DNA of 8,881 nt, taken from Planctomycetota bacterium. GTDB taxonomy: Bacteria > Planctomycetota > UBA1135 > UBA2386. The stretch is taken from the NCBI GenBank assembly GCA_020425885.1, contig JAGQRA010000268.1, positions 1-8,881 on the forward strand. Direction: 5' to 3'. Numbering within the stretch: the stretch's first letter is position 1; every line of letters begins with the position of its first letter. A program made the translations under genes and the position numbers. Shown here piece by piece: positions 1 through 8,881 of this stretch. The notes beneath the pieces are model-generated. The model had not been told where the DNA came from. It searched no databases and saw only the letters and a program-made list of their open reading frames with translations.

Positions 1-168
1 CCAGGCGTCCTGCACCGCGTCGCGTGCCAGCTCGGGATCGCGGAGGAAGCGGCCGGCGTGGCGCACCAGGGCGCCATGACAGCGATCGACGAGCACCGCG
101 AAGGCATCGCCGTCGCCGCTCTGGGCGCGCAGCACCGCGAGTTCGAGTCCTGGATCGGAAGCGTGCAT
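1..168 (-). CDS. ECF-type RNA polymerase sigma factor, N-terminal part (cut by window edge)
   Basis: The 56 codons up to the left edge encode the start of a sigma-70 family protein, extracytoplasmic-function type, which would direct RNA polymerase to a set of promoters. What is visible is sigma region 2. Residues about 21-40 (DAFAVLVDRCHGALVRHAGR) match the amphipathic first helix of region 2.1. FLRDPELARDAVQDAW (41-56) matches the conserved pattern in which A-x-D-x-VQ-x-x-[WF] leads into region 2.2, where core polymerase is bound. Region 4 and the remainder lie outside the window. The start was placed at ATG 168-166 because region 2 normally begins within 10-20 residues of an ECF N-terminus. 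An in-frame ATG at 201-199 is a possible alternative that adds 11 residues. Neither has a good Shine-Dalgarno sequence. It lies 68 nt downstream of the selenoprotein gene on the same strand, with a hairpin between them, so co-transcription is uncertain. No anti-sigma factor is seen. Confidence 0.82.
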   Translation of the reverse strand, partial: MHASDPGLELAVLRAQSGDGDAFAVLVDRCHGALVRHAGRFLRDPELARDAVQDAW

Positions 169-216: not shown

Positions 217-238
217 GACGCCGGGTTGGCCCGACGTC
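217..238 (-). terminator. GC-rich hairpin overlapping the stop codon of the thioredoxin-like gene
   Basis: In the minus-strand transcript the arms GACGUCGGG and CCCGGCGUC pair over 9 bp (one G-U) around a CCAA loop. The first base of the hairpin is the middle base of the TGA stop (239-237). No run of U follows at once; the next bases are CACGCGAUUUCGUG, which can fold into a second, weak hairpin. It may act as a terminator, a partial terminator before the sigma gene, or an mRNA-stabilising 3' structure. Without a U tract, intrinsic termination is uncertain. Confidence 0.35.
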
Positions 239-1214
239 ACCCCTTGGGTGTTCCCCCGGGCGGCAAGGGTGTCGGCTTCGTGGCAGGTTTCGCCGGCGGC
301 GGCGGCGGCGGCGTCTTGCGCGGCCGTCGCTGCGGCGCCGAGTAGTCCTCGAGATCATCGATCATGGTCCGGACCTCCGCCTCGGACACCTTGTCGCCGC
401 GGCTGCGCCGCATCATCTCGCCGAACCAGGCGCACTCCTCGGGTGAACGCGGGCCGCCGATGTTCTTGCCGTCGGCCTCGGCATTCGACGACACGATCTC
501 CTTGCCGTCGGGATCGAGGATCACCATCCACGGCAGCCCGCCGCCGCGTTCGCCCTTGAGCCGTTCGTTGATCGCCTTGCCGTTCGTGTCGCGATCGACG
601 TCGATCATGACGTCGACCCAGCCCTGCTGGTAGATCGGGGCCGTCTTCGCTCGCCCGAGGAACTCCTCGAGCACCTTGCACCAACCTCACCAGGGCGCGT
701 CGAAACGGATGAAGACGTTGCGGCCGGTCTTCTTCGCCTCGACCAGCGCCGCGGTGAGCTTCTGCTCGGCATCGACCGGCGGGCAGTATTGCGGCTTCAG
801 CTGCTCGAGCAATCGCTGCGCCTGCAGTTCACCGTCGACGAGCAGGTCGGCGGCGGTCTGACGGAGGAGCCGAGTGCGGTCGGCGGCCAACACCATCAGC
901 GCCGGCCGTTGCTTGAATGCATCGTCGAACTTCAGCTCGGTGGCCATCGCGTCGGCGTCCACGCCCTCGAACTGCACGACCTCGAACTCGTAGAGCAGCG
1001 GCCGCCCCAGGGCCTTGCTGCGCCGGCACTGCAGGGCGAGGTCCTGGCCCTGTTCGACGAAGCAGGCCAGCACCCGCTTGTTGTGGACCTTCGCCCTGGC
1101 CAGCGCCGCAGCGAGCGTCTGCAGCGGGTCGGTCTTCGGCGGTGGCGATTCGTCCTGCGCCGCGAGCGCGGTCAGCAATGACAGGGCAAGGGTCGGAACG
1201 ATGGCGCGCTGCAT
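237..1214 (-). CDS. Exported tandem thioredoxin-fold selenoprotein (U-x-x-C), TGA read as selenocysteine
   Basis: Start ATG 1214-1212 has a perfect AGGAGG six bases upstream. The frame is open to TGA 239-237 except for one TGA at 689-687. Read through, it gives 325 residues. Residues 1-20 are a signal peptide (MQRAIV, hydrophobic core, LAAQ end), so the protein is probably periplasmic or secreted. Domain 1 (about 32-140) looks like a degenerate thioredoxin fold: it lacks CxxC, keeps Cys63 near the resolving position, and has a likely cis-Pro at 104. Domain 2 (about 148-290) has FDAPW-U176-GWC179-K, the thioredoxin active site with Sec for the first Cys, then VDVMIDVDRD and cis-Pro228 in GLPWMVILDPDG, as in thioredoxin_7-like proteins. 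A Pro/Lys-rich tail follows (294-325). Likely role: thiol-disulfide reduction or exchange in the envelope; the partner is unknown. A standard gene caller would split it at 687. The alternative is a pseudogene with one TGC-to-TGA change, which is less likely given the exact Sec position and the hairpin downstream. Confidence 0.85.
295..312. repeat. Six GGC trinucleotide repeats encoding a polyproline run
   Basis: Six perfect GGC units on the plus strand are read on the minus strand as CCG codons, giving the six-proline run in the tail of the selenoprotein (residues about 302-307). Such a tract can change length by slippage in steps of one proline without breaking the frame. Confidence 0.8.
652..673 (-). 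promoter_or_regulatory. Candidate bacterial SECIS element
   Basis: The transcript just after the in-frame UGA folds into UGCUCGAGG / CCUCGGGCG, 9 bp with two G-U pairs, around an AGUU loop. The loop begins 23 nt after the UGA. Bacterial SECIS elements are known to be stem-loops inside the coding region right after the UGA, with a small apical loop about 16-37 nt downstream and a G among its first loop bases. This one fits, with G second in the loop. It would bind SelB carrying Sec-tRNA. Folding was done by eye; the bulged U seen in the E. coli fdhF element is not evident. Confidence 0.65.
687..689 (-). other. In-frame TGA, predicted selenocysteine codon (Sec176)
   Basis: The codons around it read GAC GCG CCC TGG TGA GGT TGG TGC AAG, giving D-A-P-W-U-G-W-C-K. 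In Cys homologues of the thioredoxin family this is the WCGWCK active site, so TGA sits at the nucleophilic Cys. Both flanking segments are in the same frame, and the thioredoxin fold is complete only if they are joined. The ATPase, the first permease, the fusion protein and this gene itself end in TGA, so TGA is a normal stop in this genome outside a Sec context. Confidence 0.8.
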
Positions 1215-1220
1215 TGGATT

Positions 1221-1226
1221 CCTCCT
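1221..1226 (-). promoter_or_regulatory. Strong ribosome binding site of the selenoprotein gene
   Basis: AGGAGG lies six bases (AATCCA) before ATG 1214-1212. It sets the start there rather than at the in-frame GTG at 1241-1239, and it places a clean signal peptide at the N-terminus. It is the best Shine-Dalgarno sequence in the window. Confidence 0.85.
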
Positions 1227-1244: not shown

Positions 1245-1772
1245 CTACTGCAGGATGCGCAGGTAGTCGCGCCACGGACCGACGGCGGCGGCGTAGCGCT
1301 TCGCCATGACCCTGGCGATCTGCGTGACGTGGGTCAGGTCATGCGCGACCCAGGTCGAGAGGTGCTGGCCCAACGTGACCGGGCCGAACTCGGGATGGAC
1401 ACCGCGGCGCTCGAGGTCGGCGACGGTGAGTCCGAGTGACTCGAGTTCGGCGAGACTCTGCCGCCGCGACGCCGCGAACTCGTCGAGCAGCTCACCGATC
1501 TTGCGCGGCGGCCGCGCATCCTGGGCGAAGCGATCGAAGGGCGGGAACGGTTCGCCTTCGCCGCGTTCGAGGATCCAGCGGGTGCGGAACAGCCAATCGC
1601 TGCGTTCGCCCTCGATCAGGTGACCGAGGATGTCGATCGCGTTCCAGGTCCGCTCGCCCTCGGCGCAGCGCAGCCAGACGTCGGGCAAGTCGCGCAGCCA
1701 GGCATCGAGCAGCGGCGGGGTGCGGGACAGCAGCGCGCGGGCAGAGGCGAAGTCGTAGGTGGCTGCCGGCAT
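1245..1772 (-). CDS. DinB-superfamily four-helix metal-binding protein
   Basis: A 175-residue soluble protein with the layout of the DinB/YfiT-like four-helix bundle. The three expected metal ligands are present: His51 in helix 2 (ILGHLIEGE), and His144 and His148 in helix 4 (WVAHDLTHVTQIARVM). GPVTLGQHLSTW (130-141) is the usual lead-in to that helix. Known members of this fold include thiol S-transferases using bacillithiol, mycothiol or glutathione, metal-dependent isomerases, and many uncharacterised proteins; which applies here cannot be told. Cytoplasmic, since no signal peptide is seen. ATG 1772-1770 was chosen because the conserved fold starts soon after it; no Shine-Dalgarno is visible, and a GTG at 1805-1803 is possible. 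It starts 38 nt after the second permease and ends 30 nt before the selenoprotein gene, so it is probably co-transcribed with both. Stop TAG. Confidence 0.8.
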   Translation of the reverse strand: MPAATYDFASARALLSRTPPLLDAWLRDLPDVWLRCAEGERTWNAIDILGHLIEGERSDWLFRTRWILERGEGEPFPPFDRFAQDARPPRKIGELLDEFAASRRQSLAELESLGLTVADLERRGVHPEFGPVTLGQHLSTWVAHDLTHVTQIARVMAKRYAAAVGPWRDYLRILQ

Positions 1773-1810
1773 CGGCGGCGAGGATGTTGGTTTTGGTCCT
1801 GGCACCGTTG

Positions 1811-3061
1811 CTACTCGTAGCGCAGCGCCTCGATCGGATCGAGGCTCGCCGCCTTCCACGCCGGCCACAGCCCGAAGAACAGACCGATGCCGCCGGAGCC
1901 AGCGAAGGCGAACACCCGCGCCCACAGCGGTGTCTCGACAGGCATGCCGGGCAGGGCCATGGCGACGAGCTGCAACAGGCCCTCGGCGACCAGCAGTCCG
2001 AGCACGCCGCCGACGAGACACATGACGACGGCCTCGACGAGGAACTGGCCCATGATGTCGCGGCGCCTCGCCCCTACAGCCTTGCGCACGCCGATCTCGC
2101 GCGTCCGCTCCTTGACCGACACCAGCATGATGTTCATGACGCCGACGCCGCCGACCATGAAGCCGACCGTCGACAACAGGAACATCACCGCCAGCGCGGC
2201 GAAGACGATGCCGTCGAACGCCGCGATCAGCGAGTCGGCGGTACCGATCTCGAAGTTGTCGTCCTCGTCCCAGCGCACCCGCCGGCGACGGCGAAGGACC
2301 TCGCTGATCTCCTCCTTGGCGCTGTCGATCTTGCCGGCGATGGCACGCACGGCGATGAAGTGATCGTCGCGGCCAGGGTAGAAGCGACGCAGCGTGTAGT
2401 ACGGGATCAGGAACAGGGTGTCGTCCTCGTTCTGGCCGCCGAAGGGACCCTCGCGCCGCTTCTTGCAGATGCCGATGACGGTGAACTTGTTGCCGCCGAT
2501 CAGGATCTCCTTGCCGACGCCGCCGCCGTTCGGGAACAGCGCTTCGGCCCCCGCGGCGCCGAGCACGACCACGGCGACGCGATGCTCGTTCTCCTGCTCG
2601 CCGAAGAAACGGCCCTCCTCGATGACGCGGTTGGCGGCCTCGACGTTGTTGGGGAACACGCCGCGGACGCGCGGCGAATCGACCTCCTCGTCGCGGTAGA
2701 CGGCGCGCTTCAGGAACGTCGGCGCGCTGACCCCGGGCGACACCATCTCGACCGACGGGCACAGGTCGCGGATCGCCCAGGCATCGTCGAGCGACAGCTC
2801 CCGGCGCAGCCGCATCTCGCGCGGCATGCGGCCGATGTTCACCAACGGCATCCGATAGACGTAGAGGTTGTTGGTGCCGAACTCCTCGACCTGATCGACG
2901 ACCGATTGCCGGAAACCGTTCAGCACCGACGCGACGGCGACGACGAGCAGGACGCCGATGAAGATGCCGAGCACGGTCAGGAACGACCGCATGCGATTGG
3001 CGACCAGGGTCTCGAACGCGAGCTTGGTGTTCTCGAAGACGGCGAACAGGGTGGCGCGCAT
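1811..3061 (-). CDS. MacB-type ABC transporter permease (second of a pair)
   Basis: A 416-residue inner-membrane permease of the MacB/FtsX family: one N-terminal transmembrane helix (about 27-47, after ANRMRSFLTVLGIFIG), a large periplasmic MacB_PCD domain (about 50-280), then three helices (about 283-312, 341-367, 380-400). The cytoplasmic loop NIMLVSVKERTREIGVRKAV, where the ATPase couples, and the end LDPIEALRYE are family signatures. It shares the fold and these motifs with the upstream permease but differs widely elsewhere, so the two probably form a heterodimer on one ATPase dimer. The start has GGAG six bases upstream inside the previous gene's end, and the gap to that gene is 3 nt. 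Stop TAG. Substrate unknown: drugs, lipids, peptides or lipoproteins are all known for the family. Confidence 0.93.
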   Translation of the reverse strand: MRATLFAVFENTKLAFETLVANRMRSFLTVLGIFIGVLLVVAVASVLNGFRQSVVDQVEEFGTNNLYVYRMPLVNIGRMPREMRLRRELSLDDAWAIRDLCPSVEMVSPGVSAPTFLKRAVYRDEEVDSPRVRGVFPNNVEAANRVIEEGRFFGEQENEHRVAVVVLGAAGAEALFPNGGGVGKEILIGGNKFTVIGICKKRREGPFGGQNEDDTLFLIPYYTLRRFYPGRDDHFIAVRAIAGKIDSAKEEISEVLRRRRRVRWDEDDNFEIGTADSLIAAFDGIVFAALAVMFLLSTVGFMVGGVGVMNIMLVSVKERTREIGVRKAVGARRRDIMGQFLVEAVVMCLVGGVLGLLVAEGLLQLVAMALPGMPVETPLWARVFAFAGSGGIGLFFGLWPAWKAASLDPIEALRYE

Positions 3062-3064
3062 GGT

Positions 3065-4281
<1,217 letters not shown>

Positions 4282-4285
<4 letters not shown>

Positions 4286-5034
4286 GCGCCCTCCGCGCCC
4301 TCGACGAGGGCCGGCCGCGGCGCCGGCGAACGCCGGCCGGTCGGTTCGTCGCTCTCGATGCGGCCGTCCTTGATGGTGACGATGCGTTCGGCGTGGGCGG
4401 CGATGTCGGGTTCGTGGGTGACGACGACGATCGTGTTGCCCTGGCGGTGCAGCCGCTCGAACAGCGCCATGATCTCGGCCGAGGTCTTGCTGTCGAGGTT
4501 GCCGGTGGGCTCGTCGGCGAGCAGCAGCGCCGGCTTCGTCACCAGCGCGCGGGCGATGCTGACCCGCTGGCGCTGACCGCCGGAGAGCTGGTTGGGCCGG
4601 TGGTCCATGCGATCCTGCAGCTCGACCTGGGCCAGCGCCTCGATCGCCAACTTGCGCCGCTCGGCCGGCGACACGCCGCCGTAGATCAACGGCAGCTCGA
4701 CGTTGCGCAGCGCGGTCGCGCGCGCCAACAGGTTGAAGGTCTGGAAGACGAAGCCGATCTCGCGATTGCGGATCCGCGCCAGCTCGTCCTGGGCGAGGCC
4801 GGCGACCGGCGTGCCGTTGAGCCAGTACTCGCCGGCGCTCGGCGTGTCGAGGCAGCCGATCAGGTTCATCATCGTCGACTTGCCCGACCCCGATGGCCCC
4901 ATGATGGCGACGTACTCGTTGCGCCGGATGACGAGGTCGATGCCGCGCAGCGCGTGCACCGTCGTCGATCCCATCGCGAAGGACCGCTTCAGGCCCTCGG
5001 TGCGAATGACGTCCGCTGGTCCCGCGGCAGCCAT
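4282..5034 (-). CDS. ABC transporter ATP-binding protein, MacB/LolD type
   Basis: A 250-residue cytoplasmic ATPase that powers the two permeases. All motifs are intact: Walker [10 protein letters not shown] (46-54), Q-loop Gln98 in FVFQTFNLL, signature LSGGQRQR (150-157), Walker B LLLADEP with catalytic Glu175, D-loop GNLDSKT (178-184) and switch His207 (VVTHEPD). The GNLDSKT and NRxIGFVFQ-FNLL type sequences are those of the MacB/LolD/FtsE-like subfamily. Unlike E. coli MacB, where ATPase and permease are fused, here they are separate proteins. ATG 5034-5032 overlaps the fusion-protein stop by one base (TGATG), which implies coupled translation; no strong Shine-Dalgarno is needed or seen. 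Residues after about 230 are a variable Pro/Ala-rich tail. Stop TGA. Confidence 0.95.
4290..4294 (-). promoter_or_regulatory. Ribosome binding site deciding a GTG start of the first permease
   Basis: GGAGG with a 4-base spacer (GCGC) precedes GTG 4285-4283. There is no suitable ATG nearby at the conserved N-terminus, so this site decides the start. Confidence 0.65.
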
Positions 5035-6500
5035 CAGCGCTTCTTGCGCAGGCGCATGACGTTCTCGCGCTGGCGCTTCTCGTCGACCGCGATGCGATCC
5101 CATTCCTTGAGCGTGCGCAGCTCCTTGATCGGACCGATGACGACGACGTCGCCCGTGGCCAGCCCGTCGAGCACCTCGACGTCCATGTCGCCGATGATGC
5201 CGAGCTTGACCGGAACGAAGCGGGCGCGGCCGTCGCGCATGACGAACACGCCCTCGAGCTCCTCGGTCTTCTTGCGCTCCCCGGCGTGGAGCGGAGGGAC
5301 CAGCGAATCATCGATCGGCTCCGGCGGCGCCACGTATCGATCCTCGGCATCGACCTCGACCTCGCGTGCGGTCTGGGCCTGCAACGGGATGACGAGGACG
5401 TCCTGGCGGACCGCGGTCGTGATGTCGGCGGTCGCGGTGAAGCCGGGGCGCAACGCGGCCGGCGGATTCTCGAGCCGCACCACGACCTTGAAGTCCTTGC
5501 CCTCCTGGCTGGCACCGCCGGTGTTCTCCTGGATCGGGCTCTGGCCGACCTCGGTGACGACGCCGGCGATCTCGAGGTCGCGCATCGCGTCAACCTCGAT
5601 CACGGCCTTGGCCCCGAGCGCCACGGTGACGATGTCGGCCTCGGCGACGCGGATCTCGGCCTCGATGACCGACATGTCGGCGATCGTCATCAGCGTCGCG
5701 ATCGGATTGCTCTGGATACCGGGCACGGCGCGTTCGCCCTTCTCGACGTTGAGCTTGGTGATCAACCCGCTGAGCGGCGCCCGCAGCACGGTCTTGGTCA
5801 GCATGTCGCTGGCCCGCGCCAGCGCCGCCTGCGCCGCGACCACGCGCTGCAGGGCGCCGGCGTGCACCGACTTCGCGGCCTCGACGCGCGAGGCCGCGGC
5901 CTTGACGTTGGCCTCGCCCTGCTCGATCCGCGCCTTGTTCCACTCGAGCTTCTGCTGCGTCAGCCGCGCATCGGCGACCGCCACCTCGTACTCCTCGCTG
6001 CCGAGCAGGCTGCGCTGGAACAGCTCCTCCTTGCGCTTCCACGAAGCATCGGCCCGATCCCGCGTCGTGCGCGCCTGCTCGAGCTCGAGCGCGAGGCTCG
6101 CCAGCACGACCTTCTCGGCGGCCAGGTTGGCCTCGGCGGTCGCGACGCCGACCTCGGCGTTCTTGGCATCGGCCTCGGCCGAGCCGACCTGGGCCCGCGC
6201 CGAATCGACCTCGGATTGCAGCTGCCGGTCCTCGAGTCGCAGCAGGATGTCGCCGACCTCGACGCTGTCGCCTTCGTTGACGTTGACCTCCGTGATGACA
6301 CCGGCGACCTCGGCCTGGATGTCGACGAACTCCTGCGCCTGGATCTCACCGGTCGCGGAGACGATCGAGCGCAGCTCCTCGACGACCTCGGCCTTGGCCG
6401 TCAGCACCTTGGTCGGCTCGGGTGGCTGCAGCGCTTTCCAGGTGGCCCCACCGCCGCCGGCGAGGACAACGACGAGGACGACGAGGGTCTTCTTTTTCAT
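5034..6500 (-). CDS. Periplasmic membrane fusion protein, HlyD/MacA family
   Basis: A 488-residue adaptor linking the inner-membrane pump to an outer-membrane channel. MKKK plus a hydrophobic stretch (5-20) anchors it to the inner membrane. The first half of the barrel-sandwich (lipoyl-like) domain is at about 52-92 ([20 protein letters not shown]), and the second half at about 239-258 ([18 protein letters not shown]). Between them is an Ala/Glu/Gln-rich alpha-helical hairpin coiled coil (about 93-238) that would contact a TolC-like channel. A beta-barrel domain (about 270-365) and a membrane-proximal domain (about 366-470) follow, then a basic tail (KRQREN to RKKR). The start at ATG 6500-6498 gives the proper membrane anchor; the upstream open frame adds 57 residues without family character. 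No clear Shine-Dalgarno. First gene of the operon, just downstream of the Pho-box-like repeat. No TolC-like gene is in the window. Confidence 0.92.
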
Positions 6501-6576: not shown

Positions 6577-6594
6577 ATGACATTGGCATGACAT
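6577..6594 (-). promoter_or_regulatory. Pho-box-like direct repeat upstream of the efflux operon
   Basis: On the minus strand it reads ATGTCAT-GCCA-ATGTCAT: two identical 7-mers 11 bp apart, one helical turn. The E. coli Pho box is CTGTCAT-N4-CTGTCAT, so each half matches at 6 of 7 and the spacing is exact, but the spacer is not AT-rich. It ends 76 bp before the fusion-protein ATG, with a weak -10-like GATTCT (6569-6564) seven bases downstream. It would bind PhoB or another OmpR-family response regulator. Confidence 0.45.
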
Positions 6595-6627
6595 GGAAAC
6601 CGGAAGAAGTCGCCCCGTCCAGAGCCG

Positions 6628-6640
6628 TGGCATAGTGCCA
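6628..6640. promoter_or_regulatory. Dyad TGGCA-TAG-TGCCA, possible operator
   Basis: A perfect 5-bp inverted repeat around a TAG centre in the divergent spacer, 34 bp upstream of the Pho-box-like repeat relative to the pump operon. Short symmetric sites like this can bind a dimeric repressor or activator. At this length chance is not excluded. Confidence 0.25.
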
Positions 6641-6934
6641 TGGTTGACGGGCGCGCCTGGCGCAGCCGCACCGGCCCATGCCATGGTGCAGAGGGCGAAG
6701 CGTCGGCGCCGGCGTCATCGGGAGGCAGTTCCCATCGCGGCCCAGCCGACTCGGCGTCTGCACCCGGGCCGGGATCATGCGCGCATGGACCGCGTCGGCC
6801 ACCCCGAGATTCGCAGACCGGCCCCCCCAGGCCTCACCGTATGCCTGGACTGCGGGCCCGAATGGGCCACCTCGTCCCAGCCTACCGGCCCAGTTCCGAG
6901 TCACGGGTCAGCGACCACTGGCTCTCTCCCACCA

Positions 6935-8881
6935 ATGCTCTCCCGCCATTCCATCGCCGTCACCGTTCTCCTGACCAGCAGCCTCTGCGCCCAGTCCTGG
7001 CAGCCCGGCCCCACGATCGTCACGCCGGGCAACGTCCCGCGCGCGGGCGGATTCGCCGTCAACTCCCCGGCTGGGTTCTTCCTGTTCGGCGGCACCCCGG
7101 CCAACTCGGCGGGTGACGCGCAGGTCCAGCTGTGGAACGGCTCGACCTGGGCGACGACGACCTCGCTCGAGGGTGTCTACCTGCACGGCGGCGCGGCCAC
7201 CGACGAACTCGGCCGCAACCTGATCATCGCCGGCGTCGACTCGGGTGGTGCCATGGGCGACAGCTACGAGTGGACGGTCCAGGACGGCAACGCCGGTGGC
7301 ATCCAGGACCGATCGGGGCAGGCGCCGGACCAGGGCTTCGCCACGACCACGGACGCCGCCGGCCGCGTCTACTCGATCGGCGGTTCTTCGGCCAGCGCGT
7401 TCGCCGTCGCCGCCGCCAACGGCCGGGTCGAGCGCTTCAACGCCACCACCGACCAATGGACCGCGCTGGCCCCACTGCCGACCCCGGTCGCCGATGCCGG
7501 CGCCTGCGAGGACGGCCACGGTCATCTGCTGGTCTTCGGCGGCTTCGACACCGCCGGCCTGCGAACCGCCAACGTCGCGCAATACGACGTCGCCGCCGGG
7601 ACCTGGTCGGACACCGCCGTGCCCGACATGCCGCAGGCGCGTGCCGGCGCCGGCGTGGCGCGCGGCGCCGACGGCCTGATCTACGTCATCGGCGGTTCGG
7701 ACGGCAGCGGCGCCGTGACATCGACCTTCGTGCTCGATCCGGTCGCGGCGACCTGGCGAACCGGCCCGGCCATGGCCACCGCCCGCCAGCACTTCGGCTG
7801 CGCCCTCGACGATGCGGGCAACATCTGGGCCCTCGGCGGCGACACGACGAACACGACCGAGATGCTGTTCACGCCGACCTGCCCGACCGTCATCCAGCAG
7901 CCGATGGCCAACACCGCGTTCCGCGGCGGCTCCGCCGGCTTCGCCGTCGCCGTCGGTGGCACCTCCCCGTTCACCTACCGATGGCACAAGGACGGCAGCG
8001 CGCTGACCGACGGCCCGACCCCGCACGGCAGCACGATCGCCGGCGCCGGCACCGATCAACTCGCCATCCTGGGGCTGCATCCGAACGATGCGGGCAACTA
8101 CAGCTGCGTCATCGGCAACGCCTGTGGCAGCACGATCAGCAATAGCGCGACCCTGACCATCGCCCTGCCACCGGTGCTGCCGCCGGCCTTCGTCGCCCAG
8201 AACCTGCACCCGACCAACGGCGCGCTGTCGTCGCAGGCCAACTCGGTCGACGGCAGCATGATCGTCGGCTCGGCCCGCTACACGCATCCTCAATACAACT
8301 CGCTCGACCACGCCATCGTCTGGCATCAGCTCGGCCACGGCTCGGTCGTCGATCTGACGCCGGCCAACTCGGTCGGCAGCGCGGCCAACTGCGTACGCCA
8401 GGACGCGATCGTCGGTTGGTGGTGGTGGCCCTACACCACTCCACTCGGCACCGGCTACTACCGCCAGGCAGCGATCTGGACCGGCACCGGCACCGTGCAC
8501 CACCAGGCGCAGGTGTCGGGCTGGGAGATCGGCTTGCTGAGCGCCACCGACGGCACCCACCACACAGGCACGCTGACGTACGACGAGACCTCGACCAACT
8601 CCAACGGCTTCTACTGGCCGCAGACCGGCCGCTCGGCGAGTTCGCTGACGCCGCTGACGGCGTGGGGTTCGGGCTGCAACGCCATCGACGGGCCCAACGA
8701 GTACGGTCAGGTCCACATCGGCTACGGCGTCGTGCACGCCGCCAAGTGGAACGGCGCCTCGCGCGACTGGACCGACATGAACCCGCCGGGCATGTCGCGC
8801 AGCTACATCACCGCCGCCGGCAACGGCCAGCAGGTGGGTACTGCCCACGCCGGCAGCATCGCCTACCCGGGCCTCTGGTCC
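6935..8881 (+). CDS. Exported kelch-repeat / Ig-like / HAF-like protein (cut by window end)
   Basis: 649 codons are open to the right edge. Residues 1-20 are a signal peptide (MLSRHSIAVT, hydrophobic core, LCAQ end), so it is exported. About six kelch-type repeats occur near residues 48, 97, 145, 197, 249 and 296, each with a hydrophobic strand ending in GG (FFLFGG, HLLVFGG, LIYVIGG, NIWALGG), spaced about 50 residues, as in a beta-propeller. An Ig-like domain follows (about 316-409) with core Trp350 (YRWHKDG) and the D-x-G-x-Y-x-C motif DAGNYSC at 385-391. From about 415 there is a repetitive region of A-[IA]-x-W units (HAIVWHQLGHG, QAAIWTGTG, HAAKWNGASRDW) resembling HAF extracellular repeats, including four Trp in a row near residue 495. 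It is probably a surface or secreted binding protein; no catalytic motif is seen. No Shine-Dalgarno is evident; the ATG was chosen for the signal peptide. Confidence 0.85.
   Translation, partial: MLSRHSIAVTVLLTSSLCAQSWQPGPTIVTPGNVPRAGGFAVNSPAGFFLFGGTPANSAGDAQVQLWNGSTWATTTSLEGVYLHGGAATDELGRNLIIAGVDSGGAMGDSYEWTVQDGNAGGIQDRSGQAPDQGFATTTDAAGRVYSIGGSSASAFAVAAANGRVERFNATTDQWTALAPLPTPVADAGACEDGHGHLLVFGGFDTAGLRTANVAQYDVAAGTWSDTAVPDMPQARAGAGVARGADGLIYVIGGSDGSGAVTSTFVLDPVAATWRTGPAMATARQHFGCALDDAGNIWALGGDTTNTTEMLFTPTCPTVIQQPMANTAFRGGSAGFAVAVGGTSPFTYRWHKDGSALTDGPTPHGSTIAGAGTDQLAILGLHPNDAGNYSCVIGNACGSTISNSATLTIALPPVLPPAFVAQNLHPTNGALSSQANSVDGSMIVGSARYTHPQYNSLDHAIVWHQLGHGSVVDLTPANSVGSAANCVRQDAIVGWWWWPYTTPLGTGYYRQAAIWTGTGTVHHQAQVSGWEIGLLSATDGTHHTGTLTYDETSTNSNGFYWPQTGRSASSLTPLTAWGSGCNAIDGPNEYGQVHIGYGVVHAAKWNGASRDWTDMNPPGMSRSYITAAGNGQQVGTAHAGSIAYPGLWS

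Follow-up and report, generated by a model that had tools for sequence, protein, structure and literature searches.

A predicted exported selenoprotein with a UxxC thioredoxin domain, stored in databases as separate halves, in Planctomycetota

In the 8,881-nucleotide stretch of planctomycete DNA analyzed here (the window), one in-frame TGA divides an otherwise continuous reading frame. The locus thus raises the question of whether translation ends at this codon or continues with selenocysteine (Sec) in the active site of a redox protein. We favor the latter. At a probability of roughly 0.93 for the reading as a whole, the gene encodes a predicted exported selenoprotein with hairpin-directed Sec at residue 176 and a thiol-disulfide oxidoreductase function. 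At the level of sequence, the assignment of Sec is strongly supported by conservation of the UGA, Sec/Cys exchange, a hairpin and the Sec machinery of relatives. The gene and its immediate signals are as follows.

237..1214, minus strand: selenoprotein gene of 325 codons, with its TGA stop at 239..237 and UGA codon 176 read as Sec (translation, homologues)
687..689, minus strand: in-frame UGA, Sec176, at the nucleophilic first position of UGWC (translation, homologue codons)
678..689, minus strand: UGWC redox motif, U176 to C179 (translation, alignment)
1221..1226, minus strand: Shine-Dalgarno-like AGGAGG, 6 nt 5' of the ATG at 1214 (by eye)

With TGA translated as U, positions 1214..240 of the minus strand give 325 residues with one internal TGA only, at codon 176, and the motif across the joined halves is RFDAPW-U-GWCKVLEEFL. 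A sequence-only reading of this DNA had proposed that a single TGA at 687-689 joins two same-frame segments into a 325-residue protein with the motif W-U-G-W-C-K. Translation bears this out (PW-U-GWCK); the coordinates 237..1214 and the residue number 176 given there are right. That reading named no strand; the frame is on the minus one. The split that it expected from gene callers is seen in the open reading frame listing, in which the 5' part ends at 687 and has 184 aa if it starts at the GTG at 1241 or 175 aa if it starts at the ATG at 1214; the 3' part starts at 674 and has 145 aa.

Its further claim, that neighboring genes end at TGA and the code is not reassigned, agrees with the stops of the same-strand neighbors ending at 3065, 4282 and 5034. 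Because TGA ends both several neighbors and the selenoprotein gene itself, the code has not been reassigned wholesale. Context-dependent read-through does occur in nature, which lends some weight to the idea that this UGA is reassigned or read through as Trp, Gly or Arg without selenium. We consider this highly unlikely, given these TGA stops, the fact that homologues usually have Cys in its place, and the presence in relatives of selA, selB and tRNA-Sec together with a hairpin that fits the rules for bacterial SECIS (bSECIS) elements.

The databases hold the protein in two pieces. Searching 5.8 billion proteins with the joined 325-residue protein (7997 candidates scored) gave 15 matches. Eleven of these are 180-185 aa long and every one ends at FDAPW; the remaining four are two downstream halves (P0003, P0005) and two distant Cys proteins. 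Since 11 of 15 matches stop at the same FDAPW, the split is beyond chance. The downstream half as query yielded 101 matches of 98-223 aa, one of which (P0018) is the window itself; sequences were examined for 25 other rows and for P0110, and lengths alone for the rest. Among the 25, 22 start at M/V-LEEF directly past the motif, P0095 and P0101 start later, and P0115 is a Cys form that reads GAPWCGWCKVLEEFL.

Adjacent locus tags carry the two halves in two MAGs (U1E73_07110/U1E73_07105 and H6835_10705/H6835_10710). This division by automatic annotation is what would be expected if the TGA were a real stop, with the locus being a pseudogene or two separate genes whose frame continues by descent. 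We give that reading very little credence. The same TGA, followed by an intact downstream frame, is found in divergent relatives, the active-site GWC lies 3' of the TGA, and decay would scatter stops. Moreover, the downstream half is the better conserved, at 52-82% identity to the window (25 database rows) versus 47-54% for the upstream half (11 rows), these being different proteins.

Exchange of Sec and Cys among homologues is a standard criterion for selenoproteins, as described in the accessible part of a recent survey (PMC13188914). A genome scan with the single full-length protein gave no match; one pattern in it required Cys in the motif, so that TGA genes were beyond the reach of that pattern. 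A scan of GTDB genomes with an alignment of the downstream halves, using patterns that avoid codon 176, found eight loci, all in MAGs, and in 8/8 a TGA lies immediately 5' of GWC; the scan is biased toward the Sec clade, because the query halves exist owing to the stop. In the class of G001, the genome that carries the relative L001, the second domain was found in 76 of 154 genomes. An active-site TGA is present in 44 of the 76 genomes with a family member; loci were read in 75 of them, and G018 was assessed from the match table only. A second class gave a match in 73 of 397 sampled genomes, with TGA at the site in three (G007, G270, G506); 30 loci were read there, and for the rest the match table contains zero in-frame TGA and one TAA.

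Altogether 108 sequences were read at the active-site codon: 49 have TGA, 56 have Cys, two have neither and one (L099) is partial. The first 92 to be typed (44 TGA and 48 Cys) were used for the hairpin analysis described below; four of the 48 Cys rows (L114, L115, L117, L130) were typed at the domain 1 site. Both kinds of homologue to which the sequence-only reading had looked for support therefore exist, Cys forms aligned at residue 176 (56 of the 108) and forms with TGA at the same codon (8/8 scan loci, 49 of the 108). Of the signs that it had named as speaking against Sec, TGC in close relatives is replaced by TGA, and further stops are absent from the interior of the gene in the nearest relatives, L001-L006.

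Metagenome contigs do contain errors, and in L099 a TGA stands oddly in place of a Trp codon, so the possibility that a TGC or TGT was misread or misassembled as TGA has to be weighed. A TGA at the same codon in 48 other loci, accompanied by the hairpin, leaves this explanation with next to no credence, and the TGA is best read as Sec.

Several relatives depart from the usual pattern. The TGA of L099 (genome G067) falls on the Trp codon of the GIPW loop, away from the active site, and may reflect either error or decay; another match in G067 has two TGA. L083 and L088 have Q or S at the first motif position, neither Sec nor Cys. L063, L064 and L066 show a variant site, GPG-U-[PG]WC, from which the usual Trp before Sec is absent.

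A hairpin lies downstream of the UGA.

652..673, minus strand: bacterial SECIS hairpin with a 9-bp stem and an AGUU loop at 664..661, core CUCGAGGAGUUCCUCG at 671..656 (folding, published rules, covariation)

The published bSECIS rules, in the part of the source available to us, call for 3-9 nt in the loop, 4 or more base pairs in the stem, a G at loop position 1 or 2 and a spacing of 16-37 nt from the UGA (PMC13188914). The window hairpin, whose AGUU loop starts 22 nt 3' of the UGA, conforms to them. So do 44/44 TGA genes and 9/48 Cys genes, with 43% and 19%, respectively, by synonymous shuffles; because such shuffles often fit, the rules alone are weak evidence. The minimum free energy of the window hairpin is likewise unremarkable against synonymous shuffles (z -0.46), and dinucleotide shuffles of a longer stretch give z -2.33. 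An Rfam search of the window returned nothing at gathering scores.

Position and covariation are more specific. AGUU stands at exactly 22 nt in 40 of the 44 typed TGA genes, and across those 40 a 7-bp stem has 275 of 280 cells paired, compared with at most 189 of 280 when it is slid. Compensatory changes on both sides affect four of the seven stem pairs in the 40 genes (the table over all 44 TGA genes shows five both-side pairs, one of which comes from a gene without the AGUU hairpin). The hairpin of L041, for example, is UUCCAGG-AGUU-CCUGGAA. The TGA genes L057, L074, L080 and L092 have other hairpins. The hairpin 16-mer occurs 20 times in 12 genomes, and the 12 places that were read comprise nine in the selenoprotein gene and three ordinary codings of LEEFL; the 16-mer by itself is no proof.

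The hairpin overlaps the codons for the peptide LEEFL. All genes that read LEEFL there use the same five codons (34/34, with 2.6 expected from each gene's own usage), a contrast that gives no probability because the genes are kin. LEEFL is coded there in 0/48 typed Cys genes, many of which have LEDWM or similar. The database protein P0115 has Cys and also reads LEEFL, so the hairpin is not the sole cause of this peptide. The RNA signal is therefore probably one determinant of the LEEFL peptide that follows the active site, but not the only one.

The genomes of most relatives tested encode selA, selB and tRNA-Sec of the machinery for Sec insertion. selB scores over the cut-off in 8/8 genomes of the first scan loci, selA in 13/13 relatives' genomes tested, and tRNA-Sec in 7/8 (missed in G008) and 5/5 relatives' genomes. 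The tRNA-Sec model is the weakest of the three markers, because it also exceeds its cut-off in 5/14 control genomes, including Caulobacter, Thermus and Thermotoga, where selB does not. Within the class of G001, selB was found in 139/154 genomes, made up of 41/44 with the TGA form and 98/110 others; selA and tRNA-Sec are present in the three TGA-form genomes that gave no selB match (G032, G094, G121). In the second class, selB is present in 3/3 TGA genomes versus 13/27 others, numbers too small to conclude from. As a discriminator of the TGA form selB fails, since nearly the whole class of G001 carries it. The Sec trait itself seems nearly universal in that class.

The architecture of the joined protein places the Sec in the second of two thioredoxin-like domains.

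1155..1214, minus strand: N-terminal signal peptide, residues 1 to about 20, MQRAIVPTLALSLLTALAAQ (by eye)
786..1133, minus strand: thioredoxin-like domain 1, about residues 28-143 (alignment, model)
390..776, minus strand: thioredoxin-like domain 2, about residues 147-275 (model; over the cut-off for both PF13899 and PF03190)
528..542, minus strand: GGLPW, taken as the cis-proline loop, P228 (alignment)
240..326, minus strand: proline-rich C-terminal tail, about residues 297-325, of lower model confidence and not conserved (alignment, model)

Thioredoxin_7 (PF13899) matches at 39.5 bits (cut-off 27). The structure model shows two thioredoxin folds, and domain 2 resembles solved thioredoxins; GGLPW is presumably its cis-proline loop, as judged by known thioredoxins. 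Domain 1 has lost its CxxC through a four-residue deletion at the place where Cys homologues carry WCxWC. The combination first proposed from the sequence, of a signal peptide (seen by eye) and two thioredoxin folds (from the model) with Sec in the second, stands with one qualification: because domain 1 is redox-dead in the window's clade, domain 2 alone forms the active site.

In the mechanism that we propose, SelB and tRNA-Sec, guided by the hairpin with its AGUU loop from 22 nt past the UGA, would insert Sec at position 176. The product would be exported from the cytoplasm via its putative signal peptide and fold into the two predicted thioredoxin domains. Domain 1, which would descend from a redox-active CxxC domain and has lost that motif, would probably hold a substrate or partner, or act as a binding scaffold. 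In domain 2, the selenolate of Sec176 would attack a disulfide and Cys179 would resolve the mixed selenenylsulfide, near the Pro228 loop. Substrate, partner, electron donor and the direction of electron flow are inferred from the fold. On that basis the protein most likely serves in the periplasm as a thiol-disulfide reductase or isomerase, of the DsbD-gamma, DsbH or PDI type.

A selenoprotein of this architecture might instead act outside protein thiol-disulfide exchange, with domain 2 serving, for example, as a peroxide or metalloid reductase. No conserved neighbor names a partner, and relatives fuse the Sec domain to DUF885 (L073) or to a ResA/TlpA-like domain, which gives this alternative a real, if minor, chance; we consider it unlikely. 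A thioredoxin fold that combines UxxC and a proline loop carries the classical disulfide site, and among solved structures the closest are disulfide isomerases, thioredoxins, DsbD-gamma and DsbH. The domains of ResA/TlpA type that are joined to the Sec domain also match thiol-disulfide proteins, below cut-offs. Thiol-disulfide exchange thus remains our preferred function. The fusion in L073 (2935-5085) places the Sec thioredoxin domain and the DUF885 domain in one 717-residue frame.

Comparison of neighborhoods is a weak test here because the flanks are short (about 1.5 to 6 kb). Within these flanks, the loci of 78 relatives contain no counterpart of any other window gene at E 1e-8, and in a repeat at E 1e-5 all of the 80 matches listed are to the selenoprotein. 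L003-L006 share neighbors among themselves; three of these neighbors were compared with Pfam, a histidine kinase (L005) and two peptidases (L003). In the window, a DinB_2 family protein (1245-1796, minus strand) ends about 30 nt before the selenoprotein start. Upstream of the selenoprotein gene, positions 1811-6500 (minus strand) encode two MacB-type permeases, an ABC ATPase and an HlyD-like fusion protein and resemble a tripartite exporter cluster. The start of a probable sigma-70-family factor (1-165, minus strand; Sigma70_r2 21.0 bits, cut-off 24) is cut by the window end, and a Kelch and immunoglobulin-like protein (6593-8881, plus strand) is open at the other end.

Selenoproteins with UxxC in a thioredoxin fold are already well known, and what is new here is a family and not a principle. 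A literature search, with subscription papers, preprints and supplements outside its scope, did not find the family in print. The accessible part of a 2026 table of 119 selenoprotein families lists Trx7/PDZ (CxxU) and a UxxC thiol:disulfide interchange protein (PF13098), and within that part there is no tandem Thioredoxin_7 UxxC family and no ResA/TlpA-Thioredoxin_7 double selenoprotein (PMC13188914). To that extent the table agrees with the earlier remark that the combination seen here is not recognizable as a described selenoprotein family. Predicted selenoproteins are also reported for the Porphyra-associated Planctomycetes P1 and P2, with formate dehydrogenase and formylmethanofuran dehydrogenase named in the part of the paper available to us (PMC4807772); its selenoprotein list is a possible earlier sighting of the window's family.

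Four known groups come close. As far as the available descriptions go, the PF13098 interchange selenoprotein (PMC13188914) and the GOS 'Trx-like 2' protein (cd02953, PMC2398784) have a UxxC interchange thioredoxin domain, as here. In contrast, PF13899 is the best Pfam match of the window protein, with PF13098 under its cut-off, and the redox-dead tandem domain, signal peptide and proline tail set it apart by description. Trx7/PDZ (NF041199) shares a Thioredoxin_7 type domain with Sec, and 11 of the 51 members of alignment A7 match it weakly. However, Sec comes second in its motif as described in the accessible part of the source (CxxU) and first in the window protein (UxxC), which has no NF041199 match and no PDZ domain. 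The best NCBIfam match of the window protein, over its DsbD-like end, is the TsoB rhodanese/DsbD fusion-like selenoprotein (NF045694), at 27.3 bits and thus far below the cut-off of 805; its Sec motif, in the partial description at hand, is UxxxxU, whereas no rhodanese domain was detected in the window protein. DsbD (NF001419, 21.6 bits, cut-off 330) and DsbH (NF043050, 21.9 bits, cut-off 190) are also far below their cut-offs. DsbH, DsbD-gamma and bacterial disulfide isomerase structures (3fk8, 2ju5, 2fwe, 7tkv) share the fold and the motif position at 18-28% identity, and these solved proteins presumably have Cys, not Sec.

The window gene has one TGA only, and some of its relatives appear to have two Sec sites. 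In 13 of 43 typed Sec loci, a second in-frame TGA lies in a W-U-G-P-C redoxin domain that shares the frame with the W-U-x-W-C domain, either upstream (L032-L037, L041-L043, L046, L079) or downstream (L084, L089) of it. The five W-U-G-P-C domains that were compared with Pfam score as AhpC-TSA (59-83 bits, cut-off 26); in NCBIfam ResA matches them best, under its cut-off. By MFE folding, the UGA of W-U-G-P-C fits the bSECIS rules in 6 of the 13 loci. L074 (2587-3522, genome G121) encodes one protein whose two tandem thioredoxin domains each contain a TGA; in G121 selA and tRNA-Sec were found, and a search for selB found none. Second TGA codons were flagged in 19 of the 43 loci; those counted are the 13 with W-U-G-P-C and L074, with chance UxxC strings in L006, L031, L049, L080 and L102 excluded and five further Sec loci lying outside the count. 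Judged from their sequences, 14 of the 43 Sec relatives thus look like candidate double selenoproteins, with a second site that is less well supported than the first.

A quick tree was built from 86 second domains after removal of the motif and hairpin columns, and without L114, L115, L117, L130, L091 and L097. The window gene pairs with L001 (SH-aLRT 97) within a group of seven TGA genes (100). Parsimony gives at least five changes between Sec and Cys, of which well-supported branches force only one. The placement of the TGA genes L049, L057, L074, L080 and L092 among Cys genes may reflect repeated gain of Sec. Taken further, the window gene may belong to a planctomycete Se-thioredoxin relay family, often with two Sec per polypeptide. 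Sec would have arisen or returned on several occasions, in some cases with unrelated hairpins (L057, L074, L080 and L092, inside the Cys group), and the hairpin of the main lineages would be nearly frozen and shape LEEFL. Electrons might then pass between selenium sites within one exported protein. We put this broader proposal forward tentatively, at slightly less than an even chance.

The gene described here adds a widespread predicted selenoprotein family that is stored in databases as separate halves. Among related genomes both Sec and Cys versions occur, the RNA signal places a constraint on the protein, and two Sec seem to be present in some members. Such genomes offer matched pairs in which to test what the use of selenium costs and what it gains.
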